The notes under the pieces: model-generated
The model's input: the letters and a program-made list of their open reading frames with translations, nothing else
What the model was told of the DNA's origin: nothing
The model's database searches: none
Shown: piece after piece, positions 7,001 through 25,313 of the stretch
How positions within the stretch are numbered: position 1 is the stretch's first letter
Layout: every line of letters begins with the position of its first letter
Translations under genes and position numbers: made by a program
Source of the DNA: Aspidiotus rigidus
Lineage: Eukaryota > Arthropoda > Insecta > Hemiptera > Diaspididae
DNA: 64,000 nt
Reading direction: 5' to 3'
NCBI GenBank assembly: GCA_035079385.1
Contig: JAVHKY010000035.1
Span: forward strand, 2,666,001-2,730,000

Positions 7001-9092
7001 GTGACTGACGTCTTCATGGACTGGATGTAGGTTGAAATTCTGGATGAGTCTGCGCTACCCAAGTCTGTACAATTCTGGGCTAGGTATGTCGACGATATCA
7101 TTTGCGTATGGCGAGGATCGGACTCTGACTTACAAAATTTCTTTCACCGTCTTAATTCTTATCACCCTTTCATCTCATTCACCATTGAAGTCGGTCAATT
7201 ATTTAGACCTCACAATCTCTTTATTCGAACGGTTGAACTTTCTCCACACTGACTTCGCCGTTTATCGTAAGAATACCTCCACTGAAGTTTCGATTCACTC
7301 AGCCGCCCTTCACCCGGCGACCCACAAAATGGCTCCCATAAACTCCGCGGTTCATAGGCTTGTCTCACTTTCTCTTTCAAGTCAAGCTTTTGAGTCTGAA
7401 GTTGACAACAACGAACGCATCGTCAAGATCAACGAATTAACTGTCGATGTCCGTGCCTCCTTTCATAGGCAAACCCTCTCAAGATTTGGCTGCCAAACTT
7501 CGCCGCTTTGGATATCGTACTCTCTATCTACCAAACTTATCTCCCTCAAAGACCACACCCCTAAGATGGATACAGCGGGCGTTTATAAAGTATCCTGTGG
7601 CGAGTGTCCCTCAATATACATTGCGCAAACCAGAAGGAAGCTTGGGCAGCGGTTAAACGAGTACCGGACAACTAATACAGCAGTCTCAGCCCATTGCGCG
7701 CAAGAAGGCCACGACTCCCGAAGACTGACTATCTCACTAATACATGCATGCAAGAAAAGCGCTTATTTCTTCCCTCTAATCAGTGCGAACTTGAACAAAA
7801 AAGAAAAAATTAAGCTCACGCTCGTTGATAGCCTCCATAGTCATATGTCCTAAAAAAACAATTTCCAAACACGGTCTTCAGAAAATTTGAGGTACTCAAT
7901 GAATGGACTTTTTGACTAGCCCAAAGAAAAAACCAAGCATGGAAGGTGAAAAGTCGCAATATGGAACTGCGCATCAACCTAATGGAACTGGTTGAATTTT
8001 TTGCCTTTCCCCCTTCTTTACCAGATAATGGTTTCTCACATTTGTAATCTAAATCTGGTTTAAGGTTATTGCAGGAGATGATTCGCGGAAGATTCGATCG
8101 CCTTCGTAGCTCAGCGGTTAGAGCAGTCGCCCTTCGAGCAAAAGATGTCGGGTTGGATCTCGACGAGGTGATCAAATTTTTCACTCGAGTTTTTCATTTA
8201 CCAACAACCTCCCTCCTTTATTCTTCTTCGTTATGCAACATAACAATAATCCTACCGCACGTCCCGAGATATGGCACAGATAATACAAATTTCTAAGCAT
8301 AATAAAAATCTCACGTGTTCTCATTGCGGTAGATATTTTTGAGTCTCGAGTCATTGAACCGGGATTCTGCGATTATTGCACAGTTTACACAATCTTACAA
8401 AGTTGTACCTTGGAACTGCGCATCAAACTATACATAACAGAACTGGTGGAATTTTTTGCCCTCCCCCAACCTGTGCTCAAAGATGAATATGTGGATTTTC
8501 TTATTTTTACGACTCCTTTCCCAAATCTTAGTATCATCTCTCTCATACATGTATTTTTTCTATAAATGGAGAATTTATTGTTATAGAAAAGCACACAAAA
8601 TTGCAATGGCTGTGGACAGTGTCAACCAATTTTCAGTCGGGTCGGCATGGAAATCAAGGCAGAGTGGATCATTGAAGACGGAAGAGAGGTCGAGAAGATC
8701 TCCTTGAGCGCCGAACAAGTTTTCCAAATATTCAAACGTATCAGAGAAAAAGACTGTAATATCTTAGGCCTAGATCCTTGTATTGCTAGGCCAGAGTGGA
8801 TGATTGTTACTGTAGTGCCAGTTCCTCTTTTTCTTTCATCGCAACAGCGTGATAAAGTTAGTTGAGTGGTCTTGAATAAAATACTACAGGATGGACATCG
8901 GATTTATCAGTTTTCAATTGCTCTTCTCTAGGTGAATTTCACAAAGAAAATAAATAGCGTAATAAATTCCAATAATGAATTGCAAAAATTGAAAAAAAAT
9001 GGAGCTACGACACTTGTGGTCAGAGAGAATTTAAAGAAATTACAATTTCACGTTGCAACCATGGTTGAAATTGATGGCCCTGAATTGCCCGA
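4009..9092 (+). CDS. RPB1-like (RNA polymerase II largest subunit) N-terminal fragment, 5 exons
   Basis: Five exons join without a stop and with matching phases: 4009-4126, 5164-5306, 6267-6410, 8587-8856 and 8932-9092, about 278 codons. The translation follows RPB1 from its N-terminal segment into the clamp. Visible motifs include GHIEL-EPVFH, C-x-x-CSKLLV, KGQPR-R, DLCK, the GCG-QP zinc segment, ARPEWMIVTV-PVP and the INSNNEL / LQFHVATMV block. The first zinc-binding CxxC is missing and the CPGHFGH motif is shortened, so this is a divergent paralogue and not the working Pol II subunit. The initiating exon was not found, and the catalytic two-thirds of RPB1 is absent. The last exon ends in a good donor (GTAAGT at 9093), and its frame is the same as that of the NRPS 61 bp downstream. 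It could be a truncated pseudogene or a captured 5' end of the NRPS gene. Confidence 0.72.
5307..6266. other. intron of the RPB1-like gene
   Basis: Bounded by GTAAGT at 5307 and CAATAG ending at 6266. The 60-75 codon frames inside it (for example 5345-5566 and 5794-5997) have no recognisable domain. Base composition is less AT-rich than the flanks, so an old inserted element is possible, but I identified none. Confidence 0.5.
6737..7853 (+). mobile_element. decayed Penelope-like retroelement (RT + GIY-YIG end)
   Basis: Plus-strand frames hold recognisable pieces of a Penelope-like element in the right order. At about 6900-7030 there is a reverse transcriptase B-type motif (GLPMGGPLS, then FMDWM). 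At about 7076-7120 a shifted frame reads RYVDDI, the catalytic YxDD. At about 7195-7370 lie the NYLDLTI and VYRKNTST / HPATHK blocks. At about 7570-7650 a GVYKVSCGEC-SIYIAQT-R segment begins the GIY-YIG endonuclease. Stops and frameshifts separate the parts, so it is dead. It lies in the RPB1-like intron 6411-8586. A hammerhead-like motif is present in antisense at 6767-6816. Confidence 0.8.
6767..6816 (-). ncRNA. hammerhead-like motif of Penelope type
   Basis: On the minus strand the sequence reads CTGATGA, a short stem region with GATC..GATC, then GAAAC. This is the core layout (CUGANGA - helix II - GAAA) of hammerhead motifs reported in Penelope-like elements. Helix II is weak here and catalysis is doubtful. 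Confidence 0.3.
7961..8013 (+). repeat. dispersed repeat, copy 1
   Basis: GGAACTGCGCATCAA, then GGAACTGGT(T)GAATTTTTTGCC and a C-rich end. It recurs at 8410-8466. The pair brackets the SINE copy at 8094-8265. Confidence 0.6.
8094..8265 (+). mobile_element. tRNA-derived SINE, copy 2
   Basis: It opens with a good A box (TAGCTCAGCGGTTAGAGC) and a B box degraded to GGGTTGGATCTCG. It then shares the body of the minus-strand copy at 700-872, down to the CCGCACGT block near 8258. It sits inside the RPB1-like intron 6411-8586. Confidence 0.7.
8410..8466 (+). repeat. dispersed repeat, copy 2
   Basis: Second copy of the element at 7961-8013, with an 8-bp insertion in the middle (ATACATAAC region) and the same GGAATTTTTTGCC(C/T) ending. 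Confidence 0.6.
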
Positions 9093-9153
9093 GTAAGTAC
9101 TGACAACAATTTTTTTTTATCAAAATCAAATAAACAGTAGAATAGTAGGTACA

Positions 9154-12100
9154 ATGATCCAAACAATTAGTTTCAGGAAAGGATCCAAATTGACAAATAC
9201 ATCGGAATTGGATCGGAGATCACTACTGTACAAGTGGAACCATACAGCGCTGACCTACCCGTCTGGAGTTCTCTGTATTCACCAACTATTCGAAATGCAA
9301 GTAGAACAAGTTGGACACGCTACTGCTGTGGTTTACAAAGGTACAAAACTTACCTATAACGAGCTTAATAACAAAGCAAATCAGCTGGCTTATTATTTGA
9401 TCCAGAAAGGTGTGATTCCGGAAATGCGAGTCGCACTATGCGTTGACCGGGGTCCATCGCTGATTGTGGCGTTGCTTGGTATCTTAAAAGCCGGTGCAGC
9501 ATACGTACCATTAGATCCCGCTTATCCCGGGCAACGATTGACTGATATATTGAATGACGCAACTCCATTTTGCCTGATAGTCGACACAACGGGACGGACT
9601 GCGCTCAAATCTCATAAAATGTCAACTGTAGACCTAGACAAACCTCTTCCCACCAAATTAGGTACTCACAATCCACCACCCGATGAACTGCACTTGACAC
9701 CTGCAAATATAGCGTATGTGATTTACACCTCAGGCTCAACCGGAGTACCAAAAGGAGTGATGGTTGAGCATCGACAAATAGTACGCTTGTTCAGTGTAAC
9801 ACGAGAAGTATTTTCGTTCGACCAAAATGATATATGGTGCTTATTCCATTCCTACTCCTTTGATGTTTCCGTTTGGGAGATATGGGGGGCATTAAGTAAT
9901 GGAGGACAATTAGCAATAGTACCTTACAGTACTAGTCGTTCCGCCATTGACTTTTACAAATGGATTTGTACTTCTGGCGTTACCATCCTTAATCAAACTC
10001 CTACGGCTTTTAGGACTTTTTTGCAAGGAAAAGAATTCTGTTCAGAATCTGATCAACTAAAATGGGTGATTTTTGGAGGTGAGGCGTTTAATGCTCAGAT
10101 TTTGGCCGATTGGAATGAGAAATTTCCACAACGTAAAACGATGCTTGTAAATATGTATGGTACTACAGAAACGACAGTTCATGCTACTATTCATCAATTG
10201 AGTGCATCTGAGTGGAATACTTCAATTGGACGACCTCTTTCTGACCTTTGTATTTATATCTTAGATGAGAATAGAGAATTTGTTCCATCAGGTTGCCAAG
10301 GGGAAATTTACATTGGTGGTGCAGGTGTAGCCCGTGGATATCTAAATAAACCTGACCTGACTGTTAAAAATTTCCTGCTTGACCCCTTCAGTGAGATACC
10401 AGGTGCTAGATTGTACCGTACTGGCGATCAAGGATGTTTCATGACGAATGGAAACATTACTTATTTAGGACGTTTAGACCAACAAATAAAAATTCGGGGT
10501 TTCCGTATTGAGCCAGCAGAGATAGAAGCACGACTTTTAGAACACCCCAAAGTTAAACAAGCAGTTGTGATGTCCAAAGGTTCTGGTATAAACAAACACT
10601 TAGTTGCCTTTGTGATATCAGATGAACAATCAGTGACAACCCAGGAATTACGGAACCACCTGCTAGCAGCCCTACCCAATTATATGGTTCCAGCTGCTTT
10701 TGTGAATTTGAAAACTTTGCCCCTGACTGTCAACGGAAAACTAGATGTAAAAGCTCTTTCCACTTTTCGAGACATTTCCTTTGCACACCAAATGTATGAA
10801 AAACCTGAGGGCTTTAGAGAAGAGACTCTAGCAGCCATTTGGAAAAGTCTTTTAAATACTGATAAAGTTGGCCGGCATGATAACTTTTTTGTTCTTGGCG
10901 GTAATTCTTTACATGTAGGTGAAATGTTAGCTCAGTTACACCAGTCTGAACTAAGTACTAGTGTTGAAGCGATATTCAACAGCCCAAATTTATCAGCCTT
11001 GGCAGAAAGAGTAGGAAATTATCATCCTGTATATGTTCCTCAAAACTTGATACAACCTGATAGTACAGAAATTGTCCCAGGAATGCTGTCATTGATTACT
11101 CTCTCTCAATGTGACATAGATAGAATTGTAGCGAGTGTCTCAGGAGGTGTATCCAACATCCAGGATATTTATAGTTTGACCCCATTACAGCACGGTATGC
11201 TATCGCATCACATGAATAATAAGAAAGGGGACCCTTATCTCTTAAGGACTTTTATGAGATTCAGTGAGAGGAATGCACTGGATAGTTACACTGCAGCACT
11301 CCAGAAAGTTATTGAACGACATGATATTTTGCGCACAGCTTTTATTTGGGAAGAGCTCCCTGAACCAGCGCAGGTAGTCTGGCGTAAAGTTCCTTCCGTA
11401 CTCACAGAGTGCTCATTTCAGAATTTATCAGGAAAAGCCATCAGTAATCTTGAGAACCAGTTTGATCCACAACACTACCGATTAGATTTGACAAAAGCAT
11501 CTTTACTTCATCTAATTGTCGCCCCACTTACTTCTGGCGGCTGGGAGGCAGTACAACTATACCACCACTTGATTTGGGATCATTTTACTGAGGAAATGGT
11601 TGATATTGAAATTCAGGCAATATCTATGGGCCAAGAGAAAAACCTAATGCCTTCTATTCCATTCCGAAATTGTGTAGCTCAATCACTCCTAGATATCAGC
11701 TCTGAAGAACATACCAAATTCTTCAGTGATATGTTATCTGATATTGACGAGCCAACATTGCCATTTGGTTTAAGAGATATTCATCTGAGCGGCGCTGAAG
11801 TCACTGAAGTAGAATGTCTATTGCCTCCGACCCTGAACAGTACCTTACGTTTGCAAGCTCAGCACTTACAAGTTAGCTTAGCCAGTTTATGTCACCTGGC
11901 TTTTGGAAGAGTACTTTCCTGCGTTACTGGATTAAGTGCCGTTGTTTTTGGAACTGTATTGTTAGGACGCTTGCAAAATGGAGGAAAAAATACAAGAGCG
12001 CTAGGTTTATGGATGAATACATTACCCTTCCGACTGGATATAGATCAAACAACAGTTGAATCGTCCGTGCGTGAAACACACATCCGTCTAAGCAATTTAC

Positions 12101-15100
12101 TAGCTCATGAATATGCTCCACTGTCAATGGCTCAACGATGTAGTAATATCCCATCAAATACACCGTTGTTCAGCGCAATTCTTAATTTTCGACATAATAA
12201 TCTCTCTGCAAAACTGTCTCTTCCGGGAGTAGAGGTTATGGGATTTGATGAGAGAACAAATTATCCTCTGATGATCAGTATAGAAGATAATGGCAATAGT
12301 CTGGGTATAACAACACAAGTGATTGCTCCATTATCAGGAAGAAGAATTACCACCTATATGCGTGAAGCACTATTGTCTCTATCTGATGCACTTATTAATT
12401 TGCCACATCAAAAAGTACAAGAATTGAATGTTTTGCCTTGGCCAGAGCGTACATTGCTCACTGAAACCTGGAACCATCGCATAATATCAAGCAGTTCTCC
12501 TTGCCACTGTATACACCAATTATTTGAAGCTCAGGCAGAACAGAATCTACAAGCGCTCGCAATAAAATCTGAAAAAAAAATATTGAGCTATTTTGATCTA
12601 AACTCCCAAGCCAACCAACTAGCAAATTACCTAATTCAACTTGGAGTGAAGCCTGACACCAAAGCAGCAATATGTATGATGCGCGAGACAAATCTGGTGG
12701 TGGCAATTCTGGGTGTACTAAAAGCAGGAGGGGCATATGTACCCCTAGATCCGGTACACTCAAGTAAACGCTTGAATACCATATTGAATGATGCTGAACC
12801 AATGTTACTGATAACAGATGCAACTGGTCTCGAAGCTCTTGGAACTCATAAAACTTATCAAGTACCAGTAATTAATATGGATCAACCTCTGCCAACAAGT
12901 CTGACCACAGGAAATCCACAAAGGAAGAATCTCGATCTTATACCATCTCATCTTGCCTATGTTTTTTATACCTCAGGTTCAACTGGAACCCCTAAAGGCG
13001 TCATGGTTGAACATCGACATGTTAGTAGGCTATTTCATACTACTTCTTTTGAATTTAAGTTCTCTAATAAGGATAAATGGTGTCTATTCCACTCATTTTC
13101 ATTTGATCTTTCTGTTTGGGAGATATGGGGGTCTTTACTATATGGTGGTCAACTAACTATTCCTTCTCTCGACATTATTCGATCTACCTTCAGTTTTTAT
13201 GACTGGATTTGTACCTCTGGTATTACTGTATTGAACGAGACCCCTTCTGCATTCAGAATGTTAATACAAGCCAAAAATGATAGTTCTAAATCTGACATGC
13301 TGCGTTATATAATAATAGGAGGAGACGTTTTTGACTCATTGATTGTGAAAAAGTGGTTTGAAAAGAATTTAAAGAATCCCACTATTCTCTACAATGCATA
13401 TGGTCCGACAGAAACGACAGTTCATACCACTTTTCACAGAATTGAGCCATCAGACTATAACACGGTATCAATTGGGCGACCCCTTCCTGACCTGAAAATC
13501 TATTTACTAAATAACTTGAAGGAACCTTTACCAATTGGTGCTGAAGGTGAACTCTATATTGGCGGTGCTGGAGTCACTCGTGGCTACCTTAATCGCCCGG
13601 AGCTTACAAGAGAGTTCTTCCTTACAGATCCATTCAGTGAACTTGGCTCCCGGATGTATCGTACAGGTGACAAAGCTTACTATCTACCCGACGGTAATCT
13701 AGTCTTTGTTGGACGCGTTGACCATCAACTCAAGATACGTGGTTTCCGCATAGAACCTGCTGAAATAGAAAAGAGCTTAGTAGAACATTCTCACGTTAAG
13801 GAGGCTGTCGTGATAGCAAGAGATAAAAATTTAGATAAACAGTTAGTAGCCTATATTGTAATGGAACACGATTCATTCACTGCACAGGACTTACGGAATC
13901 ATTTGATCACAAGATTACCCGATTACATGATTCCAACTGCATTTGTATTCTTATCGGCCCTACCTCTCAATTGTAATGTTAAGCTAGATCGCCGAGCCCT
14001 ACCAGAACCAGGCGAACATGCCTTTGCTCATCAAAAATATGAGGCGCCACAGGATGCGATAGAAGAAAAGTTGGCTGCTATATGGAGTGACATTCTCAAA
14101 AGAAAACAAGTTAGTCGACATGATAATTTCTTTGCACTTGGCGGACACTCTTTATTAATCATGAAACTGATGTCTCTACTGCGACAGTTTGACTTGACAA
14201 CATCTGTCCAAGCTGTATTTGAGACTCCTACTCTGGCTCTTCTAGCACAAACTATCAAGGATTATCAACATTTTGATGTTCCACCTAATGTAATTCAACC
14301 TGACTGCACGACCATCACTCCCGATATGTTACCTCTAATTTCACTCTCGCAGAAGGATATTGATTTAATTGTTTCACAAGTCTCCGGCGGAGTTTCTAAT
14401 ATTCAAGACATTTATAGTTTGGGCCCCTTACAAAACGGCATACTCTTTCATCATTTGAATGTTACTGAGGGAGATCCCTATCTCCTATCATATCAAATTC
14501 AATTTAGCAATGAAGTGGTATTTAATAAGTATACAGATGCTCTTCAGAAAGTAATTGAACGTCACGATATTTTGCGAACAGCCTTTATGTGGGAGGGCTT
14601 ATCTGAACCTGCGCAGGTGGTATTACGACAAGTAGAACCGGTTCTGTCGAAGGCAAAATTAGTAAATTCTGAAGAAAATATACTTGTACAACTAAAAAGC
14701 CTATATCATCCCCGTCACTATTCACTGAACCTGAATCAGCCTCCATTGATACGTCTTGTCGTTGCTGAAACATCAGAAACCAATAGGTTCGCCATACTAC
14801 TTCTGCACCACCTTCTTTGCGACCATTTTACCATGGACATTTTACAAGCTGAAATTAAAGTAATAATCAGCGACCAACAAGATGAATTACAACCTCCTAT
14901 CCCTTATCGAAATCTTGTGGCTCAGGCATTCCTAGGAGACAATCCTGAAGAGCAGAAAAAATTCTTCAGTAAAATGCTGGCTGGCATTGATGAACCAACT
15001 TTACCTTTTGGTCTCAGCAATATTAATCTGGACGGAACAAATATTACGGAATCATTCTGCCAGCTACCTCAATCATTCTATGAGAGGTTATGCATTCAAG

Positions 15101-18100
15101 CCCAACGATTAGGGGTTAGTTTAGCTAGCGTGTGTCACTTAGCCTATGGATTGGTACTTTCTTCAATAAGCGGGCAAGATGTAGTAGTGTTTGGAACCGT
15201 CTTATTTGGTCGAATGAAAGATGGAGGAGGCAGTAACAATGCAATTGGGTTGTGGATTAATACTCTACCAATTTGTATAAATATAGATCAGACTGATGTT
15301 GAAACTGATGTACGTGATGCACAAGCGAGGTTGAGCGCTCTGATGTCTCATGAACATACATTACTAAGTTTGGCTCAACGATGTAGTCGGATACCATCTG
15401 GTATGCCACTATTCAGTGCACTACTAAACTATCGCCATAACAAAGGTTTCAAGGAGGTAAATATTCCAGGAGTAGAATTTCTAGGTGGTGAAGAGCGTAC
15501 AAATTATCCACTGACATTATCAGTTGAGGACTATGGGAATGGATTAGGATTTACAGCACAAGTAGTTCAACCACATTTGCCTGAAAGAATATGTTCTTAC
15601 ATGCGGGAGGCTTTGTTATCCATAATGCTTGCTCTAGAAACTAAATCTCAAGAACCTATACAAACATTGAATATTTTATCATACTCTGAAAGAATTCTTC
15701 AAATTGAAACCTGGAATGAAACTCCTGCACATCATCACCCCTCTAACCTCTGTCTTCATGAGTACTTTGAAGTTCAGGTCGACTTGAATAACTATGCACC
15801 GGCACTAGAATTTGAGGGTGCCACTTTGAGCTATATGGAGGTTAATACCCGCGCAAACCAATTGGCTCATTACCTCCTTGATCGCGGTGTAAGGCCAGAT
15901 ACAAGGGTCGCAATTTGTGTGTCTCGTTGTCCAAATCTTGTTGTGGCCCTACTGGCCGTTTTGAAAGCTGGTGGTGCGTACGTACCACTTGATCCTGCTT
16001 ATTCCAGTAAAAGATTGATGAACATTCTGCATAATTCTGAACCATTGCTTCTTCTAGTGAATTCAGCTGGTATGGATGCCTTGGGAACATCAAGTATCCC
16101 TTTTATTAATATGGACATAGACCTTCCTCAAGACTTACCAACATCTAATCCTCAGCCAAAAAATATCAATCTAACGTCAGCAAATCTTGCGTATGTGATT
16201 TACACATCAGGTTCAACAGGAGATCCAAAGGGTGTTATGGTAGAACATCGTAATGTAACCAGGCTCTTTCATACAACACGGGCAAATATTGATTTTAGTA
16301 GTGTGGATAAATGGTGTCTTTTTCACTCATTTTCATTTGATGTCTCTGTATGGGAGATCTGGGGAGCCTTAGTTTATGGTGCGTCATTAGCTATTCCTCC
16401 TCTGAATATGATCCGAGCTACCGAATATTTTTACAATTGGCTTTGTGCTTCTGCGATTACTGTATTAACTCAGACACCTTCTTCATTCAAAGCCTTTTTA
16501 CAAGCTATGGAAAGTGACTCAAAATTTGATATTTTGCGTTACCTAATATTGGGAGGAGAAACTATAGACCCATTGGTTGTTAATAAGTGGTTTCACATGA
16601 ATAGAAAAAAGTCCACTGTACTATACAATTTTTATGGACCTACCGAAACGGTTGCTTTTGCCACTTTTTACAAAATCGAACCTCTAAATCACACAATTAT
16701 ATCGATTGGACGACCTCTTCCTGACCTTATAATATATTTACTAAATAACTTGGGTGTTCCCGTGCCGATAGGAGCTGAAGGTGAAATATATGTTGGTGGT
16801 GCTGGAGTCGCCCGAGGGTACCTCAACCAGCCTGAGCTTACATCAGCTTATTTTCTTCCTGATCCATTCGGTCATCCTGGTTCCCGGATGTATCGTACAG
16901 GTGATAGAGCTTACTATCTACCAGATGGTAATCTTGTCGTTCTTGGGCGCATAGACCATCAACTTAAAATACGTGGTTTCCGTATTGAACCCGCTGAAAT
17001 AGAGAAGAGCTTAGTAGAACATCCTTACATTAGGGAGGCAACTGTGACAGTTCGAGAAACGAAGTTAGATAAACAGTTGGTAGCTTATGTGGTAGCGGAT
17101 GAAAATTCTCTCAATGCACGTGACTTAAGGAATCATTTGATCACAAGATTACCCGATTACATGATTCCAACAGCATTTGTATTATTGTCAGCCTTACCTC
17201 TCAATTGTAATGGCAAGCTAGACCGTCGAGCTTTACCCGATCCAGATGAAAATTCTATCGCTCATCAAATATATGAAGCACCGCAGGGCGAAGTAGAAGA
17301 AAAGTTGGCTGCTATATGGAGTGACATCCTTAGAAAGAAACAAATTAGTCGACATGATAACTTCTTTGCACTTGGCGGACACTCATTATTAATAATAAAA
17401 TTGATGGCGCAACTACGACATGTTGGTCTAGATACAAGTGTCCAAGCTGTATTTGAAGCACCCAACCTTGCTGCTATGGCAAAAACTATCAAGAATTATC
17501 AAGCCTTCGACATTCCACCGAACCTAATTGAACCTGACTGCAAAACCATCACTCCCGACATGTTGCCTCTCATTTCACTCTCGCAGATGGATATTGATGT
17601 AATAGTATCACAAGTCCCAGGTGGAGTTTCCAATATTCAAGACATTTATAGTTTGAGCCCCTTACAAAACAGCATTCTCTTTCATCATTTGAATGTGACT
17701 GAGGGAGATCCCTATCTATTTTTATCCAAACTCCATTTTAGTAATCAAGTGGCATTCAAGAATTATAAAGATGGTCTTCAGAAAGTAATTGAACGTCATG
17801 ATATTCTTCGGACAGCCTTCTTGTGGGAGGAACTGAGTGAACCAGCACAGGTGGTATTCCGACAAGTAGAATCAGTTCTGGTGAGAGCAACCTTACCAGA
17901 TTCTACAAATGATGTCCTTGAACAGTTGACAAGGATGTATAATCCGCGTCACTATACTTTGAACTTGAACAAACCTCCTTTGATACGTCTTGTTGTGGAG
18001 CAGGGTTCTATCTCTGATTGTTACGCCATACTTCTTCTACACCATCTTCTTTGCGACCATTCTAGCCTGGAAGTCTTACAAGCTGAAATTAAACTAATAA

Positions 18101-21100
18101 TCCGCGACCAACAAGATGAATTACAACCTCCTATCCCTTACCGAAATCTTGTGGCTCAGGCATTCCTAGGAGACAATCCTGAAGAGCAGAAAAAATTCTT
18201 CAGTGAAATGCTGGCTGGCATTGATGAACCAACTTTACCTTTTGGTCTCGGCAATATTAATCTGGACGGAACAAACATTACGGAGTCATTCTGCCAGCTA
18301 CCTCAATCATTCTATGAGAGGTTATGCATTCAAGCCCAACGATTAGGGGTTAGTTTAGCTAGTATGTGTCACTTAGCTTATGGTTTGGTACTTTCTTCAA
18401 TAAGCGGGCAAGATGTAGTAGTGTTTGGAACCGTCTTATTTGGTCGAATGAAAGATGGAGGAGGCAGTAAGAATGCCATTGGGTTGTGGATTAATACTTT
18501 ACCAATTTGTATAAATATAGATCTCACTGATGTTGAAACTGATGTACGTGATGTACAAGCGAGATTGAGCGCTCTGATGTTTCATGAACATACATTACTG
18601 ACTTTCGCTCAACGATGTAGTCGGATACCACCTGGTATGCCACTATTTAGTGCACTACTAAACTATCGCCATAACCAAGATTCCAAGGAGATAAATATTC
18701 CAGGAGTAGAAATTCTAGGTGGTGAAGAGCGTACAAGTTATCCACTGACATTATCAGTTGAAGACTATGGGAATAGATTAGGATTTACAGCACAAGTAGT
18801 TCAACTACTTTTGCCTGAAAGAATATGTTCTTACATGCGGGAGGCTTTGTTATCCATAATGCTTGCTCTAGAAACTAAATCTCAAGAACCTATACAAACA
18901 TTGAATATTTTACCATACTCTGAAAGAATTCTTCAAATTGAAACCTGGAATGAAACTCCTGCACATCATCATCCCTCTAACCTCTGTCTTCATGAGTACT
19001 TTGAAGTTCAGGTCGACTTGAATAACTATGCACCGGCACTAGAATTTGAGAGTGCCACTTTGAGCTATATGGAGGTTAGTACCCGCGCAAACCAATTGGC
19101 TCATTACCTCCTTGACCGTGGGGTAAGGCCAGATACAAGGGTTGCAATTTGTATGTCTCGTTGTCCAAATCTTGTTGTGGCCCTTCTGGCCGTTTTGAAA
19201 GCTGGTGGTGCGTACGTACCACTTGATCCTGCTTATTCGAGTAAGCGATTGATGAACATTTTGCATAGTTCTGAACCATTGCTTCTTCTAGTGAATTCAG
19301 CTGGTATGGACGCCTTGGGAACATCAAGTATTCCTGTTATTAATATGGACGTAGACCCTTCTCAAGACTTAGCAACATCTAATCCTCAGCCAAAAAATCT
19401 CAACCTAACGTCAGCAAATCTTGCGTATGTGATCTACACATCAGGTTCTACAGGAGAACCTAAGGGCGTCATGGTAGAGCATCGTAATGTAACAAGACTC
19501 TTCAATGTAATACGCACAACTTTACATTTTAGTAAAGAGGATAAATGGTGTCTTTTCCACTCATTTTCATTTGATGTCTCTGTATGGGAGATATGGGGAG
19601 CATTACTTAATGGTGGTCAATTGACTATTCCTTCTCTGAACATGATTCGGTCTAACTTTCATTTTTATAACTGGATTTGTTCTTCTGGGATCACTGTATT
19701 GAACCAGACCCCTTCCGCATTCAGAACACTGTTACAAGCTAAAAATGATAGTTCTAATTGTGATATTTTGCGTTATTTAATAATAGCAGGTGATGTACTC
19801 GATCCAGTGGTTGTTAATATGTGGTTTGAAACGAATGTTGTAAGTCCCACTACATTATACAATTTTTATGGTCCCACTGAAACGGTAATTTTTGCCACTT
19901 CTTATAAAATTCAACCTTTAAAATACAATATAATATCAATTGGGCGGTCTATTCCCGACCTTAAAATATACCTACTAAATAGAGTGAGGAACCCTGTACC
20001 GATAGGTTCTGAAGGTGAAATTTATATTGGCGGTGCGAGAGTAGCCCGGGGATACCTCAATCGCCACAAGCTAACATCACAATATTTTTTTGCTGATCCA
20101 TTCAGCAGAACTGGCTCCCGGATGTATCGTACAGGTGACAGAGCTTACTATCTACCAGATGGTAATCTTGTCTTTCTTGGACGCATGGACCATCAAATTA
20201 AAATTCGTGGTTTTAGAATTGAACCTGCTGAAATTGAGAGGAGCTTAGTAGAACATCCTTACGTTAGGGAGGCAACCGTCACAGTTCGAGAGAAAAATTC
20301 AGATAAACAGTTGGTAGCCTATGTAGCAGCGGATCACGATTTGCTCCATGCACGGGACTTAAGGGATCATTTGATCACAAGATTACCTGATTTTATGATA
20401 CCAACAGCATTTGTATTATTATCAGCCTTACCTCTCAATTGTAATGGTAAGCTAGACCGTCGAGCTTTACCCGATCCAGATGAAAATTCTATCGCTCATC
20501 AAATATATGAAGCACCACAGGGTGAAGTAGAAGAAAAGTTGGCTGCTATATGGAGTGCCCTACTTGGAAGGCAAAAAATTAGTCGATACGATAATTTCTT
20601 TGCACTTGGAGGACATTCACTATTAGTTGCAAAGTTATTGGGACAATTGCACCAGTCCGGACTGAGCACTGATGTTCAAGCAATTTTTAATTCTGCAACA
20701 TTCGCTTCCATGGCGGATACCATTGTTTACTACAAATCTTTCACCATTCCACCTTATTTTATACAGTTAGATAGCGCTGAAATCACACCAGAAATGTTAC
20801 CGCTTATCTCCCTGACTCAAAGTGATATAGACATTATTGTTGCGCAAGTTCCTGGAGGTATATCTAACATTCAAGATATTTACGGTCTGTCTCCATTACA
20901 GCAAGGTATATTGTTTCATCACTTGATCTCCAAAAAAGGAGATCCCTACATGCTCATTACCCATCTCAAATTTGTTGATCAAAGAACTCTTGATCTGTAT
21001 GCTAGTGCTCTTCGGAAAATTATACAACGACATGATGTATTACGCACTGCTTTTATATGGGAAGGAATCAGCAAACCAGCTCAAGTGGTCTGTCGACATG

Positions 21101-24100
21101 TCCCATCAACATTGACTCATATTACACTTGATGCACCTGATGAATCAGTTATGAAAGAACTGATAACTCGTTTTGATTCGCAACATTATCGTTTGGATTT
21201 AACACAACCTCCTTTGTTACGGTTGATTATTTCGCCACTCAGTGATGGTGGCTGGGCAGCAGTTCAGCTGTTTCATCATTTGATTAGCGATCAATCCACT
21301 TCCGAAAAGCTCTTGATGGAACTTAATTTGATGATAACCGGAAGAGAAAATGAACTGACATCATCCATTCCCTTCCGTAACCTCGTGGCTCAGTCGCTAT
21401 GTGATCTTAGGGCAGAGGAACGCACTCAATTTTTCAGTAAAATGCTAGGGGACATAGAGGAACCAACATTGCCCTTTGGTTTGAGTGACATTCATTTGAA
21501 TGACAATGAGGTGAGTGAAGCCATGTGTATGTTGTCTAAGACCTTGAATGATAGTTTGCGCATGCAAGCAAAAAGGTTGCAAGTCAGCCTTGCTAGTTTG
21601 TGTCATTTGGCATTTGGACAATTCCTGTCCTGCGTTAGTGGTTGTGAAAATGTAGTGTTTGGAACAGTATTATTAGGTCGCTTTCAGCATGGAGACAGAA
21701 ATGAAGGTGCCTTTGGGTTGTGGATCAATACACTACCATTTAGAGTGAATTTGGGGAAAAAAACCGTTGATATGTCAGTCCGTGAGACACATTCTTTATT
21801 AAGTGCCCTACTGTTCCATGAACATACACTACTTGCAATGGCACAACAATGTAGCCGTATACCTGCTTCAATGCCTCTGTTCACTACAATATTTAACTAC
21901 AGACATCATCGACCCCCTTCAGAAATATCATTTCCTGGAATTGAGGTTCTTGGAGGAAGAGGGCGAACTAACTACCCACTAGCATTATCAGTGGAGGACT
22001 ATGGTAATGGCTTAGGGTTGACAGTTCAGGTTGTTCCCCCAGTTTTGGGCAAAAAAGTATGTTCCTACATGGAAGAAGTACTGAAATCGCTTGCTGATGC
22101 TCTTACCCATTTACCGAGTCAATCAATTGAAACTTTATCTGTGTTGCCACAATCTGAGCGTTTATTGCATCTACAAACTTATAACGAATCCACAAGTGAT
22201 TATCGGTATTCCAATTATTTTATGCATCAATTATTTGAAGCAAATGTTGAAGATGATGGTTCAGCTCCTGCTATAGAATTTGAAGGTCAGATATTATCGT
22301 ACAAAGAGTTGAATTTTCGAGTCAATAAACTAGCTCATTTTCTTATCAAGGAGGGAGTCAGACCAGATACAACAGTAGCATTGTGTGTGAGTCGAGGTCC
22401 AACAATGATTATTTCATTGTTAGCTATTCTGAAAGCTGGAGGAGCTTATGTTCCCCTTGATCCAGTTCATTCAAGTAAGCGATTAATCAATATTCTAAAA
22501 GATTCTGAACCATTTTATCTACTGGTTGATGATTCTGGTCGAGATGCACTTGGTCCTTGCAATGTTCCAATGGTCAATTTAGATGAACCCTTATCCATCA
22601 ATCTAAACGCAAACAATCCACGACCAGATGAGGTAGGTCTCAGGTCAGGCCATCTTGCCTACGTAACTTATACATCAGGCTCAACTGGAGTACCTAAAGG
22701 AGTAATGGTTGAGCATCGTCAGCTGACAAAACTCTTTGATGTCACTCACGAGAAATTTGAATTTAGCAAAGAGAAAAAATGGTGTCTTTTCAGTTCTATT
22801 TCCTTTGATGTTTCTGTATGGGACGTATGGGGATCACTTGGGTATGGTGGTTCATTAGCAATCGCTCCTTTCAATACCATCCGTTCTCCTCCTAATTTTT
22901 ATGAATGGATTTGTGATTCTAATATCACTGTTCTTTCCCAAACACCTTCTGCCTTTAAAATGTTTCTACAAGCTAGAAACAATAGTCTACAAAGTGACGT
23001 ACTACAATATATCTTTATTGGAGGTGAGGAACTGGACTTGCGTGTATTTAAAAGATGGTTTGAGTTGTATTCAGACAGATCAACTATTCTAATGAATATG
23101 TATGGAAATACAGAAACAACAGTTCAGGCTATTTGTCACGAGGTAAGATCATCCGATGATAGTAATATAATCGGACGACCACTCTACGATGTAAAGGTTT
23201 ACCTCTTGGACACACAACTCAGACTAATACCTTTAGGTGCTGAGGGGGAGCTCTATGTCGGAGGGGCTACAGTTAGCCGAGGCTATCTCAACAATCCAGA
23301 CCTAACAGGGGCATATTTTTTTTCTGACCCATTTATTGGACATTCTGACGCACGAATTTACCGTACTGGTGATAAAGCACGTTACATGTCAGATGGAAAT
23401 CTCATTTATTTAGGACGAATTGACGGTCAGATAAAGTTGCGAGGTTTTCGCATTGAACCTGCGGAAATAGAAGCCCTCCTGTTAGAATGTAATGCTAATA
23501 TAAAAGAAGCGGTTGTGGTTGCAAAGGGTAATGACGTAGATAAACATCTGATAGCTTACCTAGTGTTGGATACAGATTCACTTACAGCTCAAGATCTGAG
23601 AAACTATCTAATTACATTACTACCTGACTACATGATACCAAGTGCATTTGTGCGTTTAACCGCCTTGCCCCTCAATCCAAATGGAAAACTTGACCACAAA
23701 GCTCTTCCACCACCAGATTATGAGGCTTTTGCTCGCCAGGTGTATGAGGCACCGTCAAATGAGATCGAGGAGAAATTATCTTTTATCTGGAGTTCTGTGC
23801 TGGGTGTTGAGCGCATTAGTCGTCATGATAATTTCTTCGAACTTGGTGGGAATTCTGTGTTTGCCATGCAGTTTGGCAGTCGTGCAATGCAGTATGGTCT
23901 AAAAACGCGTACTGGCGATTTATTCCGTCATCCAATAATGAGAAATCTCGCTCTATTTGAGGCTGACCGCACTGGGCATCTACGCGTGGACTACGCGATT
24001 CCGGCTCGTCGTTTCGGTAGTCAGTCCCCTCTATTTTTTGTACCCGCGGGCACCGGAAATCATTCTTACGCCTTCTCATTAACGCATGACATAGACAGCA

Positions 24101-24870
24101 ATTTCCCTGTTTATCTTCTACCATGGCCAACGCTTGAAGAAAATTTACCACAAAGTATGGAAGAAATGGCCAACAGAATGATTCGTATAATGAAAAGTGT
24201 TCAAGCCAACGGACCATATGCTATTGCTGGGTATTCCTCTGGTGGTATTCTTGCGTATGAAATAGCTCAGCAGCTCACGAGCGGTCAATATGATCATCAT
24301 ACCGTTCAGTTTGTAGGATTGATCGATACGTACCCTCCGTACATTAAAATGGCGCTCGAGGATACAGAGTTCTTCCTCAATTTTATTATAAAGAGTAATG
24401 TTTTTCCAAAAATCGTTAATGACTCAGCTTGGTGGGACTCCATCAGCGAAATGGATCTTGCTGAAGTTATTGATGAAATAAAAAAGATTAGCGTTGAAAT
24501 GAAAATAATAGATATAGAAAGAGATATTCGACTGTGGAAACAGATTTACTCATATGGAAAAATGGTAGAGTCTTATAAAATAGATACCTTGTCACTTCCG
24601 GTGAATTTATTCAAAGCAACAGAGTTCGACGAATTCACTCCTGGCCATGTTCGTTTACAAGGTAAGCTACAAGATGATATGAAGAAGCGAAAAGAGATAT
24701 TTCGCATGTCGAAGTTGGGCTGGGAAATGTACTTTCCATCGACAAATATTCGCGTCATTTCCATAAAAGGAAATCATATAACGATGATGGAAGACCCAAA
24801 AATGAGGAAAGATTTAGGTGCAAAAATTAGTGAAGCACTGGTGGATAGTCACGTGCTTTTGGAAGGATAA
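9154..24870 (+). CDS. five-module non-ribosomal peptide synthetase (A-PCP-[C-A-PCP]x4-TE)
   Basis: A single 5,238-codon frame without introns. Domains (residues): A1 42-540, PCP1 Ser585, C1 ~668-1105, A2 1119-1610, PCP2 Ser1666, C2 ~1755-2185, A3 2200-2690, PCP3 Ser2744, C3 ~2833-3262, A4 3278-3770, PCP4 Ser3822, C4 ~3911-4340, A5 4357-4850, PCP5 Ser4901, TE ~4950-5238. Every A domain has YTSGSTG-PKG, YRTGD and RGFRIEPAEIE. TE has GYSSG (Ser5028), Asp5058 and His5208. Each C domain has the N-terminal HHx5GD of dual E/C domains (His685, 1766, 2844, 3922) and a central HHxxxD (His804, 1885, 2963, 4041). Predicted product: a five-residue peptide with D residues 1-4, released by TE. A1 reads DVWNIGMVHK, one change from the threonine code. 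Family resemblance is to proteobacterial NRPSs, so horizontal transfer is inferred. The ATG at 9154 is the first clean start, but upstream exons are in frame. Confidence 0.95.
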   Translation: MIQTISFRKGSKLTNTSELDRRSLLYKWNHTALTYPSGVLCIHQLFEMQVEQVGHATAVVYKGTKLTYNELNNKANQLAYYLIQKGVIPEMRVALCVDRGPSLIVALLGILKAGAAYVPLDPAYPGQRLTDILNDATPFCLIVDTTGRTALKSHKMSTVDLDKPLPTKLGTHNPPPDELHLTPANIAYVIYTSGSTGVPKGVMVEHRQIVRLFSVTREVFSFDQNDIWCLFHSYSFDVSVWEIWGALSNGGQLAIVPYSTSRSAIDFYKWICTSGVTILNQTPTAFRTFLQGKEFCSESDQLKWVIFGGEAFNAQILADWNEKFPQRKTMLVNMYGTTETTVHATIHQLSASEWNTSIGRPLSDLCIYILDENREFVPSGCQGEIYIGGAGVARGYLNKPDLTVKNFLLDPFSEIPGARLYRTGDQGCFMTNGNITYLGRLDQQIKIRGFRIEPAEIEARLLEHPKVKQAVVMSKGSGINKHLVAFVISDEQSVTTQELRNHLLAALPNYMVPAAFVNLKTLPLTVNGKLDVKALSTFRDISFAHQMYEKPEGFREETLAAIWKSLLNTDKVGRHDNFFVLGGNSLHVGEMLAQLHQSELSTSVEAIFNSPNLSALAERVGNYHPVYVPQNLIQPDSTEIVPGMLSLITLSQCDIDRIVASVSGGVSNIQDIYSLTPLQHGMLSHHMNNKKGDPYLLRTFMRFSERNALDSYTAALQKVIERHDILRTAFIWEELPEPAQVVWRKVPSVLTECSFQNLSGKAISNLENQFDPQHYRLDLTKASLLHLIVAPLTSGGWEAVQLYHHLIWDHFTEEMVDIEIQAISMGQEKNLMPSIPFRNCVAQSLLDISSEEHTKFFSDMLSDIDEPTLPFGLRDIHLSGAEVTEVECLLPPTLNSTLRLQAQHLQVSLASLCHLAFGRVLSCVTGLSAVVFGTVLLGRLQNGGKNTRALGLWMNTLPFRLDIDQTTVESSVRETHIRLSNLLAHEYAPLSMAQRCSNIPSNTPLFSAILNFRHNNLSAKLSLPGVEVMGFDERTNYPLMISIEDNGNSLGITTQVIAPLSGRRITTYMREALLSLSDALINLPHQKVQELNVLPWPERTLLTETWNHRIISSSSPCHCIHQLFEAQAEQNLQALAIKSEKKILSYFDLNSQANQLANYLIQLGVKPDTKAAICMMRETNLVVAILGVLKAGGAYVPLDPVHSSKRLNTILNDAEPMLLITDATGLEALGTHKTYQVPVINMDQPLPTSLTTGNPQRKNLDLIPSHLAYVFYTSGSTGTPKGVMVEHRHVSRLFHTTSFEFKFSNKDKWCLFHSFSFDLSVWEIWGSLLYGGQLTIPSLDIIRSTFSFYDWICTSGITVLNETPSAFRMLIQAKNDSSKSDMLRYIIIGGDVFDSLIVKKWFEKNLKNPTILYNAYGPTETTVHTTFHRIEPSDYNTVSIGRPLPDLKIYLLNNLKEPLPIGAEGELYIGGAGVTRGYLNRPELTREFFLTDPFSELGSRMYRTGDKAYYLPDGNLVFVGRVDHQLKIRGFRIEPAEIEKSLVEHSHVKEAVVIARDKNLDKQLVAYIVMEHDSFTAQDLRNHLITRLPDYMIPTAFVFLSALPLNCNVKLDRRALPEPGEHAFAHQKYEAPQDAIEEKLAAIWSDILKRKQVSRHDNFFALGGHSLLIMKLMSLLRQFDLTTSVQAVFETPTLALLAQTIKDYQHFDVPPNVIQPDCTTITPDMLPLISLSQKDIDLIVSQVSGGVSNIQDIYSLGPLQNGILFHHLNVTEGDPYLLSYQIQFSNEVVFNKYTDALQKVIERHDILRTAFMWEGLSEPAQVVLRQVEPVLSKAKLVNSEENILVQLKSLYHPRHYSLNLNQPPLIRLVVAETSETNRFAILLLHHLLCDHFTMDILQAEIKVIISDQQDELQPPIPYRNLVAQAFLGDNPEEQKKFFSKMLAGIDEPTLPFGLSNINLDGTNITESFCQLPQSFYERLCIQAQRLGVSLASVCHLAYGLVLSSISGQDVVVFGTVLFGRMKDGGGSNNAIGLWINTLPICINIDQTDVETDVRDAQARLSALMSHEHTLLSLAQRCSRIPSGMPLFSALLNYRHNKGFKEVNIPGVEFLGGEERTNYPLTLSVEDYGNGLGFTAQVVQPHLPERICSYMREALLSIMLALETKSQEPIQTLNILSYSERILQIETWNETPAHHHPSNLCLHEYFEVQVDLNNYAPALEFEGATLSYMEVNTRANQLAHYLLDRGVRPDTRVAICVSRCPNLVVALLAVLKAGGAYVPLDPAYSSKRLMNILHNSEPLLLLVNSAGMDALGTSSIPFINMDIDLPQDLPTSNPQPKNINLTSANLAYVIYTSGSTGDPKGVMVEHRNVTRLFHTTRANIDFSSVDKWCLFHSFSFDVSVWEIWGALVYGASLAIPPLNMIRATEYFYNWLCASAITVLTQTPSSFKAFLQAMESDSKFDILRYLILGGETIDPLVVNKWFHMNRKKSTVLYNFYGPTETVAFATFYKIEPLNHTIISIGRPLPDLIIYLLNNLGVPVPIGAEGEIYVGGAGVARGYLNQPELTSAYFLPDPFGHPGSRMYRTGDRAYYLPDGNLVVLGRIDHQLKIRGFRIEPAEIEKSLVEHPYIREATVTVRETKLDKQLVAYVVADENSLNARDLRNHLITRLPDYMIPTAFVLLSALPLNCNGKLDRRALPDPDENSIAHQIYEAPQGEVEEKLAAIWSDILRKKQISRHDNFFALGGHSLLIIKLMAQLRHVGLDTSVQAVFEAPNLAAMAKTIKNYQAFDIPPNLIEPDCKTITPDMLPLISLSQMDIDVIVSQVPGGVSNIQDIYSLSPLQNSILFHHLNVTEGDPYLFLSKLHFSNQVAFKNYKDGLQKVIERHDILRTAFLWEELSEPAQVVFRQVESVLVRATLPDSTNDVLEQLTRMYNPRHYTLNLNKPPLIRLVVEQGSISDCYAILLLHHLLCDHSSLEVLQAEIKLIIRDQQDELQPPIPYRNLVAQAFLGDNPEEQKKFFSEMLAGIDEPTLPFGLGNINLDGTNITESFCQLPQSFYERLCIQAQRLGVSLASMCHLAYGLVLSSISGQDVVVFGTVLFGRMKDGGGSKNAIGLWINTLPICINIDLTDVETDVRDVQARLSALMFHEHTLLTFAQRCSRIPPGMPLFSALLNYRHNQDSKEINIPGVEILGGEERTSYPLTLSVEDYGNRLGFTAQVVQLLLPERICSYMREALLSIMLALETKSQEPIQTLNILPYSERILQIETWNETPAHHHPSNLCLHEYFEVQVDLNNYAPALEFESATLSYMEVSTRANQLAHYLLDRGVRPDTRVAICMSRCPNLVVALLAVLKAGGAYVPLDPAYSSKRLMNILHSSEPLLLLVNSAGMDALGTSSIPVINMDVDPSQDLATSNPQPKNLNLTSANLAYVIYTSGSTGEPKGVMVEHRNVTRLFNVIRTTLHFSKEDKWCLFHSFSFDVSVWEIWGALLNGGQLTIPSLNMIRSNFHFYNWICSSGITVLNQTPSAFRTLLQAKNDSSNCDILRYLIIAGDVLDPVVVNMWFETNVVSPTTLYNFYGPTETVIFATSYKIQPLKYNIISIGRSIPDLKIYLLNRVRNPVPIGSEGEIYIGGARVARGYLNRHKLTSQYFFADPFSRTGSRMYRTGDRAYYLPDGNLVFLGRMDHQIKIRGFRIEPAEIERSLVEHPYVREATVTVREKNSDKQLVAYVAADHDLLHARDLRDHLITRLPDFMIPTAFVLLSALPLNCNGKLDRRALPDPDENSIAHQIYEAPQGEVEEKLAAIWSALLGRQKISRYDNFFALGGHSLLVAKLLGQLHQSGLSTDVQAIFNSATFASMADTIVYYKSFTIPPYFIQLDSAEITPEMLPLISLTQSDIDIIVAQVPGGISNIQDIYGLSPLQQGILFHHLISKKGDPYMLITHLKFVDQRTLDLYASALRKIIQRHDVLRTAFIWEGISKPAQVVCRHVPSTLTHITLDAPDESVMKELITRFDSQHYRLDLTQPPLLRLIISPLSDGGWAAVQLFHHLISDQSTSEKLLMELNLMITGRENELTSSIPFRNLVAQSLCDLRAEERTQFFSKMLGDIEEPTLPFGLSDIHLNDNEVSEAMCMLSKTLNDSLRMQAKRLQVSLASLCHLAFGQFLSCVSGCENVVFGTVLLGRFQHGDRNEGAFGLWINTLPFRVNLGKKTVDMSVRETHSLLSALLFHEHTLLAMAQQCSRIPASMPLFTTIFNYRHHRPPSEISFPGIEVLGGRGRTNYPLALSVEDYGNGLGLTVQVVPPVLGKKVCSYMEEVLKSLADALTHLPSQSIETLSVLPQSERLLHLQTYNESTSDYRYSNYFMHQLFEANVEDDGSAPAIEFEGQILSYKELNFRVNKLAHFLIKEGVRPDTTVALCVSRGPTMIISLLAILKAGGAYVPLDPVHSSKRLINILKDSEPFYLLVDDSGRDALGPCNVPMVNLDEPLSINLNANNPRPDEVGLRSGHLAYVTYTSGSTGVPKGVMVEHRQLTKLFDVTHEKFEFSKEKKWCLFSSISFDVSVWDVWGSLGYGGSLAIAPFNTIRSPPNFYEWICDSNITVLSQTPSAFKMFLQARNNSLQSDVLQYIFIGGEELDLRVFKRWFELYSDRSTILMNMYGNTETTVQAICHEVRSSDDSNIIGRPLYDVKVYLLDTQLRLIPLGAEGELYVGGATVSRGYLNNPDLTGAYFFSDPFIGHSDARIYRTGDKARYMSDGNLIYLGRIDGQIKLRGFRIEPAEIEALLLECNANIKEAVVVAKGNDVDKHLIAYLVLDTDSLTAQDLRNYLITLLPDYMIPSAFVRLTALPLNPNGKLDHKALPPPDYEAFARQVYEAPSNEIEEKLSFIWSSVLGVERISRHDNFFELGGNSVFAMQFGSRAMQYGLKTRTGDLFRHPIMRNLALFEADRTGHLRVDYAIPARRFGSQSPLFFVPAGTGNHSYAFSLTHDIDSNFPVYLLPWPTLEENLPQSMEEMANRMIRIMKSVQANGPYAIAGYSSGGILAYEIAQQLTSGQYDHHTVQFVGLIDTYPPYIKMALEDTEFFLNFIIKSNVFPKIVNDSAWWDSISEMDLAEVIDEIKKISVEMKIIDIERDIRLWKQIYSYGKMVESYKIDTLSLPVNLFKATEFDEFTPGHVRLQGKLQDDMKKRKEIFRMSKLGWEMYFPSTNIRVISIKGNHITMMEDPKMRKDLGAKISEALVDSHVLLEG

Positions 24871-25115: not shown

Positions 25116-25125
25116 AATAAATAAA
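25116..25125 (+). terminator. polyadenylation signals after the NRPS
   Basis: Two overlapping AATAAA hexamers lie about 246 nt after the NRPS stop, followed by A-rich and G-rich DNA. They fit a eukaryotic 3' end. Chance occurrence in AT-rich DNA cannot be excluded. Confidence 0.4.
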
Positions 25126-25155: not shown

Positions 25156-25313
25156 CAGGCGCAGATCCAGACGATCACTTTGAAAAAGGACACAGGACTT
25201 TTTTTTTTTACATTTTCTTCAAAACTACAGATTTTTGTTGTTTTTTTTTTTGGGGGGGGGGGAGGGCGGAGACATGTTCCCTATGTCTCCCCCCCCCCGT
25301 GGATCCGCGCCTG
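25156..25313. mobile_element. hAT-type MITE with G- and C-homopolymer core
   Basis: Terminal inverted repeats CAGGCGCAGATCCA (left) and TGGATCCGCGCCTG (right) differ at one position. The flanks share CTTTTT (25150-25155 and 25314-25319) as a likely target duplication. The ends resemble hAT TIRs of the CAG..GGATCC kind. Inside, a G-run and a C-run with GGAGACAT / ATGTCTCC arms would fold into a hairpin. No coding sequence. Confidence 0.65.

Follow-up and report, generated by a model that had tools for sequence, protein, structure and literature searches.

Multi-module peptide synthetases (NRPSs) have been described in the genomes of bdelloid rotifers, nematodes and springtails, and the main text of PMC10531068 suggests a horizontal origin for them. 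These animals belong to other taxa than the one studied here, and the likeness to the present locus is one of description. The survey reported there covered 1059 animal genomes and found NRPSs in 86 species, spread over 7 phyla, which fits the rarity in animals that a preliminary description of this locus had claimed. The main text of the survey makes no mention of midge, Contarinia, Sitodiplosis, Diptera, Bradysia or Cecidomyiidae. Among the papers listed by full-text literature searches, no report of a scale-insect or gall-midge NRPS was seen; supplementary gene tables may list one. The main text of PMC8455502, on midge toxin genes, has no NRPS terms, that of PMC12510726 contains neither 'peptide' nor 'synthetase', and that of PMC10158165 does not contain 'peptide synthetase'.

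The window analyzed here, 64,000 nucleotides of the scale insect Aspidiotus rigidus, holds a single open frame of 5238 codons that runs from ATG to TAA on the plus strand with zero internal stops. The runner-up frame in the window (ATG, GTG or TTG start) has 273 codons. The order of domains is A-T-C-A-T-C-A-T-C-A-T-C-A-T-TE, giving five adenylation (A), five carrier (T), four condensation (C) and one thioesterase (TE) domain. The features of the frame, with the evidence for each in parentheses, are as follows.

9154-24870, plus strand, NRPS open reading frame, 5238 aa (ORF, Pfam, motifs)
9274-10758, plus strand, A1, pocket code DVWNIGMVH(K) (window profiles, pocket codes)
10765-11034, plus strand, T1 carrier (window profiles)
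11167-12486, plus strand, C1, HHMNNKKGD and HHLIWDH (motifs, window profiles)
12508-14001, plus strand, A2, pocket code DLWNIGAVH(K) (window profiles, pocket codes)
14008-14277, plus strand, T2 carrier (window profiles)
14410-15729, plus strand, C2, HHLNVTEGD, dual E/C motif (motifs, window profiles)
14848-16167, plus strand, tract with 93-99% identity (120-bp steps) to its copy at 18082-19401, 3234 bp further on (self-comparison)
15751-17235, plus strand, A3, pocket code DVWTIGFAF(K) (window profiles, pocket codes)
17242-17511, plus strand, T3 carrier (window profiles)
17644-18963, plus strand, C3, HHLNVTEGD, dual E/C motif (motifs, window profiles)
18985-20469, plus strand, A4, pocket code DVWNIAFIF(K) (window profiles, pocket codes)
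20476-20745, plus strand, T4 carrier (window profiles)
20878-22197, plus strand, C4, HHLISKKGD, dual E/C motif (motifs, window profiles)
22219-23706, plus strand, A5, pocket code DVWSFGMVQ(K) (window profiles, pocket codes)
23713-23982, plus strand, T5 carrier (window profiles)
23983-24867, plus strand, TE release domain, GYSSGG, closest to midge TEs (46%) (Pfam, motif, tree, identities)
25116-25121, plus strand, possible poly(A) signal (AATAAA or ATTAAA), about 245 bp past the NRPS stop (motif match)

Profiles made from the window itself locate the five A, five T and four C domains, and in this placement no starter C domain precedes A1. With the ORF scanned as two halves, Pfam reports AMP-binding in 3 + 2 stretches, Condensation in 2 + 2, PP-binding in 2 + 3 and Thioesterase in 0 + 1. 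The core motifs A3, A5, A7, A8 and A10 are intact in all five adenylation domains, where YTSGSTGxPKG, YRTGD, RGFRIEPAEIE and NxKLD are each present 5/5; A2 has NVKLD, retaining the lysine, and the other four have NGKLD. All five T domains carry FFxLGG[HN]S with the phosphopantetheine serine, HHxxxD is present in 4/4 C domains, and GYSSGG occurs once, in the TE. The final G of the usual HHxxxDG is replaced by H in three of the window C domains and by Q in one; H is also the most frequent residue at this position in the relatives counted. Frame, Pfam and motifs confirm the intact five-module NRPS of the preliminary description, with its five A, five PCP, four C and one TE. A pseudogene was considered and ruled out by the zero stops, the intact motifs and dN/dS below 1.

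Excerpts of PMC1894796 state that dual E/C domains bear an N-terminal HH[I/L]xxxxGD beside the active-site motif. The strict form of this motif is present in three of the four window C domains (C2, C3 and C4), and C1 has M in place of I/L (HHMNNKKGD); the looser HHx5GD is found in 4/4 window and 12/16 midge C domains. By motif the four window C domains would be dual epimerization/condensation domains, and their epimerase activity is a prediction. Because all four carry the dual E/C motif, a D-D-D-D-L pentapeptide is predicted. Every A domain would load its own carrier protein, which a host phosphopantetheinyl transferase would have to prime, and each dual E/C domain would flip the upstream residue to D and then condense, after which the TE would release the peptide in linear or cyclic form. 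The A1 code predicts a threonine-like first residue. A defensive, antimicrobial role of the product is a guess.

Directly upstream of the NRPS, on the same strand, lies a diverged piece of the RNA polymerase II largest subunit (RPB1) in four segments (best PDB chain E = 1.1e-60, residues 73-312; PF04997, RPB1 domain 1, E = 8.6e-44). Its predicted exons, and the predicted intron that follows them, are listed here.

5164-5306, plus strand, predicted RPB1-like exon a, AG before 5164 and donor GTAAGT at 5307 (homology, borders)
6267-6410, plus strand, predicted RPB1-like exon b (homology, borders)
8587-8856, plus strand, predicted RPB1-like exon c (homology, borders)
8932-9092, plus strand, predicted RPB1-like exon d, its 3' end coinciding with the last matched RPB1 residue, 312 in the best PDB chain (homology)
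9093-9176, plus strand, predicted 84-bp intron, GTAAGT...TTTCAG/G; an alternative acceptor at 9137 gives 45 bp (splice joining)

Exons a-d have AG and GT borders and their joined reading frame stays open; the first codon of exon a is split and needs an upstream exon to complete it. The piece is identical to the matched RPB1 stretch at 105/225 positions (47%). Searches of the window did not find RPB1 residues 1-84 and 327-560 or later RPB1 motifs, nor a start-codon exon ahead of exon a, looked for as RPB1 residues 1-84. Judged by homology, the piece is a fragment and not a polymerase gene, the catalytic core and the remaining domains having been looked for in the window and not found. When drift without selection to 50% identity was simulated, 1/300 runs kept zero stops (mean 6.8 stops), so the piece was probably translated during much of its divergence; present-day translation is not implied, and the RPB1-like conservation might predate the fusion. 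Between exons b and c, reverse-transcriptase-like and GIY-YIG-like frames at 6731-7853 look by eye like a Penelope-like element; Pfam gave no match on 7032-7850.

The last donor, GTAAGT at 9093, coincides with the end of the RPB1 homology, and exon d lies 61 bp from the NRPS ATG. On paper, a splice from 9092 to 9177 keeps the frame into the NRPS, as does the alternative acceptor with the exon resuming at 9138, and the translation of exons a-d joined to the NRPS has 5470 or 5483 letters, counting the sole terminal stop. Gaps in the laminin gene of the same window served as a yardstick; they measure 59-90 bp in 10 of 15 adjacent segment pairs and are longer in the other five, so that an 84-bp intron would be ordinary and one of 45 bp short. 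These features suggest that the NRPS is likely spliced onto the RPB1 fragment, yielding a predicted RPB1-NRPS chimera whose expression would be driven by the promoter and 5' exons of the duplicated RPB1 piece. It is possible, with a lower probability, that the NRPS instead stands alone as an intronless gene starting at 9154 and that the RPB1 exons are an unrelated, dying duplicate. The ATG at 9154 carries A at -3, which makes an own start feasible, and the merely 47% identity of the RPB1-like piece, the earlier and later RPB1 parts not found in the window and the mobile-element-like sequence seen by eye in an intron of the fragment all speak for such a gene. They are opposed by the four exons with open frame and AG/GT borders, by a phase that fits into the NRPS (a chance of one in three), by a GTAAGT donor placed where RPB1 homology ends, and by the 61 bp, which is scant space for a promoter. 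Under the preferred reading of a predicted chimera, the term intronless used in the preliminary description holds for the NRPS frame and probably not for the gene, to which the exons of the RPB1 fragment splice in frame on paper.

The same description had placed spliced animal genes on both sides. To the right this is borne out by a multi-exon laminin gamma gene and an RNase T2 coding frame (31529-32071, PF00445, E = 1.4e-34); to the left it is so only in part, the RPB1 piece being a fragment (residues ~73-312). The laminin gamma-1 gene lies on the minus strand at 47.7-57.0 kb, and its 16 coding segments join into a 1007-residue product identical at 68% to that of the mealybug Planococcus citri, 62% to that of the orthopteran Anabrus and 61% to that of an aphid. 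One gap of 3646 bp separates coding segments at 49.7-53.4 kb, and 10/15 gaps are below 100 bp. A 31-row laminin tree groups the window gene with P. citri and two further sequences (support 99), with aphids outside; P. citri is the sole named scale insect in that tree, and the long window branch (0.3) hints that the host belongs to another family than P. citri. A gall midge as host, to which the NRPS matches had pointed, was rejected on this placement of the laminin gene beside a mealybug. A weak BTB/POZ-like frame at 39961-40200 scores 17.1 bits against a Pfam cut-off of 20.5. Soon after the NRPS, at 25252-25298, a G-run and a C-run form an inverted pair that by eye resembles a mobile-element remnant; inverted repeats 3' of the NRPS are short ones only. 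Rfam gave nothing at gathering threshold over the window.

G+C across the NRPS is 0.38-0.42, inside the range of the other kilobases of the window (0.29-0.44), third-position G+C is 0.316, and codon usage is weakly like that of the laminin gene (r 0.33). Eight translated stretches were scanned with Pfam; four matched nothing, and outside the NRPS no bacterial-type family was found. A symbiont contig fused to an insect scaffold during assembly would explain the bacterial-looking gene architecture. Such an artifact is very unlikely, given RPB1 exons that stop 61 bp short of the ATG and whose frame carries on into the NRPS, the G+C values of the gene and its third positions, the lack of a bacterial-type family in the stretches scanned around it (half of them without any match), and closest kin in the C, A and TE trees that are insect proteins.

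Relatives were retrieved in two protein searches (5.8 billion proteins) with query residues 600-2200 and 4400-5238, and the 199 obtained come from the best 120 of 1128 and the best 120 of 1125 scored. Among the matches listed, the named animal relatives are four gall-midge proteins. The best 120 of 1128 in the first search include Sitodiplosis LOC129569885 (54%), LOC129568840 (54%) and Contarinia LOC116341514 (51%), along with bacteria up to 52% (Mycetohabitans P0056) and fungi to 49% (Basidiobolus P0007); the best 120 of 1125 in the second include Sitodiplosis LOC129573419 (45%). Across the 199 relatives, window A1-A5 are 56-59% identical to the best midge domain and 52-54% to the best other, and the window TE is 46% identical to the best midge and 37% to the best other. 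The corresponding values for the C domains are 54.0% midge versus 52.6% other for C1, 52.3% versus 52.7% bacteria for C2, 51.8% versus 52.1% bacteria for C3, and a tie at 53.0% midge and 53.0% other for C4. Pairwise identities of the C domains thus fail to separate midges from bacteria; the A and TE sequences are closest to midges.

For matches that cover 80% or more of a window A, C or TE domain, identity reaches at most 59.3% to any of the 199 relatives and 54.3% to a non-midge relative. With nothing retrieved above 59.3% and a long stem below the insect clade, the recent acquisition first offered as one option for this gene, taken as transfer from a bacterium, is not supported and was set aside. 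Scanned with the N-terminal 1740 residues, GTDB yielded a single match, at 24%; the patterns for that scan were drawn from nothing but the query, and more distant bacterial kin may have been missed. Viral contigs scanned with the C1 domain contained no relative, and a viral vector was set aside on this one scan.

Trees of the C and A domains, as proposed in the preliminary description, place the NRPS domains with gall midges, not bacteria. The first C set had 109 rows from 33 proteins (32 retrieved relatives and the window), and removal of 28/109 rows, near-copies and long branches, left 81 for a tree under a mixture model. In that tree the four window and 16 midge domains form a clade (100/100) in which each group is also recovered (window 99/96, midge 100/98). 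The set was then enlarged with 24 C domains of eight proteins, chosen to cover the best bacterial matches to C1-C3; in the resulting 90-row tree the 20 insect domains again separate from the 70 others (100/100; the four window domains 98/96). An alternative topology, in which the window C domains cluster with bacterial and fungal ones and the midges stay outside, costs 46 log units and was rejected (AU test, p 0.00168; the group tested was chosen after the tree was known). A 122-row A tree of 26 proteins, in which bacteria and others are sampled with 25 of the 199 relatives, unites the five window and 17 midge domains with support of 100, and the window five by themselves with 88. A 52-row A tree built by a careful method gives 100/100 for the union, 99/96 for the window and 100/99 for the midges. 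In a 15-row TE tree the window TE and three midge TEs form a clade (100/99). Partial insect domains were excluded by length, namely Contarinia C 120-405 and the split A 5768-6233, Sitodiplosis partial C 1-115 of P0010, and the partial A of P0061 and P0155; Streptomyces P0180 contributed no C row.

In the C, A and TE trees the insect clade contains none of the bacteria sampled, and fungal C and A domains fall outside it. The window C rows have an unusual composition in the C trees, and the insect clade sits on a long stem. Because long stems and odd C composition raise long-branch attraction, the mixture model was used; this caveat for the insect clade must be kept in mind, with the three domain types in agreement.

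The insect A domains belong with bacterial and fungal ones in a mostly threonine-type group (45 rows, support 100), within which no donor genus is supported as sister. The gene likely descends from a bacterial synthetase. A synthetase with threonine-type A domains would have entered insects, either in a single event followed by movement between insects or in two events from one donor lineage outside the sample. We give an even chance to two independent acquisitions, by scale insects and by gall midges, from a common donor lineage outside the sample, for instance an insect-associated bacterium, with the shared stem being bacterial history. How many transfers took place is the sole point on which this differs from our best explanation. 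Hemiptera and Diptera are distant orders, the best 120 of each search list no further named insect NRPS (many of these rows are nameless), the window domains and the midge domains are sister groups that each expanded their modules separately, and the non-insect matches include insect- and fungus-associated bacteria (Mycoavidus, Mycetohabitans, Photorhabdus); all of this favors two entries, against which stands the absence of any sampled bacterium from within the insect clade. Certain gall midges prey on scale insects, and for this reason shared donors, or direct transfer between midge and scale insect, are a fair question. Parts of PMC8455502 suggest that microbe-to-insect transfer is likelier where the organisms share an environment. 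Vertical descent from an ancestor shared by Hemiptera and Diptera, coupled with loss from almost all remaining insects, is extremely unlikely. The reciprocal monophyly of the two insect groups is expected under vertical descent, but very many losses would be required, and passages of PMC10531068 name springtails and a mite and, for winged insects, the single-module Ebony alone.

All 22 insect A domains tested form one clade inside the 45-row group of the 122-row tree, and the A domains of one bacterial or fungal protein are mostly scattered across the A tree. Among the non-insect A domains of the sister group with a code listed (n = 19), ten have DFWNIGMVH and three more are one residue off. 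We take DFWNIGMVHK to be a threonine code, the tenth residue K being assumed in all codes. Two Rhizobium A domains in the group have DAFWLGGTF and DAWFLGNVV, and the group is not purely threonine-type. The simplest reading would be that one module type was amplified and that the copies then changed their pockets. Trees of the N-part (98/95) and C-part (100/93) of the A domains recover the window A group; the pocket-core tree (126 columns) does not set the window A domains apart from midges (35/0), so an ancestor may already have been multi-module, with later homogenization of the flanks. As an arbiter between amplification and homogenization the pocket-core tree was undecided at that support.

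At the offset of 3234 bp, the pocket-coding stretch 16408-16887 is just 69-76% identical, and 16888-17367 is 85-94% identical. Together with the tract at 14848-16167, the alignment points to late homogenization or duplication between modules, a mosaic of similar flanks and diverged pockets. The acquired synthetase would have grown by module duplication or homogenization. dN/dS is 0.316 for A3/A4 (dS 0.37), 0.232 for A2/A3 (dS 1.04), 0.231 for A2/A4, 0.410 for C2/C3 (dS 0.21) and 0.20 for both T2/T3 and T3/T4; deeper module pairs are saturated or almost so in dS. Purifying selection acts between modules, with dN/dS of 0.2-0.4 for the less diverged pairs, in support of the continuing selection claimed earlier. 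The late stretches show nearly zero synonymous change between modules, which implies that the array was reshaped recently, presumably inside the insect genome. A1 of Sitodiplosis LOC129568840 (P0061), DVWSFGMVI(K), has nearly the same pocket code as window A5, DVWSFGMVQ(K), although the two insects belong to different orders, by convergence or as a retained ancestral pocket. Pockets of Contarinia nasturtii LOC116341514 (P0004) are far from the threonine type (e.g., DTLLIGGIG, DAVHCGVVW), and their divergence suggests new substrates in gall midges.

Overall, the best explanation, which we hold with moderate confidence, is a five-module NRPS of likely bacterial descent, likely spliced to an RPB1 fragment, with a predicted pentapeptide product. 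A fuller version, to which we give somewhat less than an even chance, is that one threonine-type module was acquired, that scale insects and gall midges multiplied modules separately, re-tooled pockets and homogenized flanks, and that the scale-insect NRPS fused to a duplicated RPB1 fragment giving promoter, start and spliced 5' exons. A clade shared by scale insects and midges, with one A class, would let assembly-line evolution be followed inside animal genomes, and if the clade holds, module gain, pocket change and homogenization become datable against host trees. The RPB1 junction makes it possible to test directly how a foreign megagene comes to be expressed in an animal, and the enzyme may yield a new peptide made by the insect itself.

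Compared with known systems, the locus is most like the gall-midge NRPSs (Sitodiplosis mosellana LOC129569885, LOC129568840 and LOC129573419; Contarinia nasturtii LOC116341514), which have the same domain classes, fall in the same C and A clade, have A domains from a single class and, where a TE match exists (three of them), share a TE clade with the window. They differ in belonging to another insect order, in being 45-54% identical over the searched regions and in their module numbers, and the Contarinia pocket codes are far more diverged than those of the window. Bacterial dual E/C synthetases (Mycoavidus, Mycetohabitans, Photorhabdus, Xenorhabdus) have the same domain classes, many with a TE, and mostly HHx5GD and HHxxxDH as in the window, but a single such protein has A domains of several classes, against the one class of the insect A domains tested, and the bacterial C, A and TE domains do not fall within the insect clade. 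Excerpts of PMC9893682 hold the bacterial-like NRPSs of Mortierella and Basidiobolus, e.g., CalA, to be eukaryotic genes of bacterial origin, as proposed here, and CalA shares dual E/C domains with the window NRPS; the Mortierella and Basidiobolus C and A domains differ in lying outside the insect clade. An animal NRPS of horizontal origin is of a known kind, and what appears to be new here is the clade of scale insects and gall midges and the predicted fusion to RPB1.
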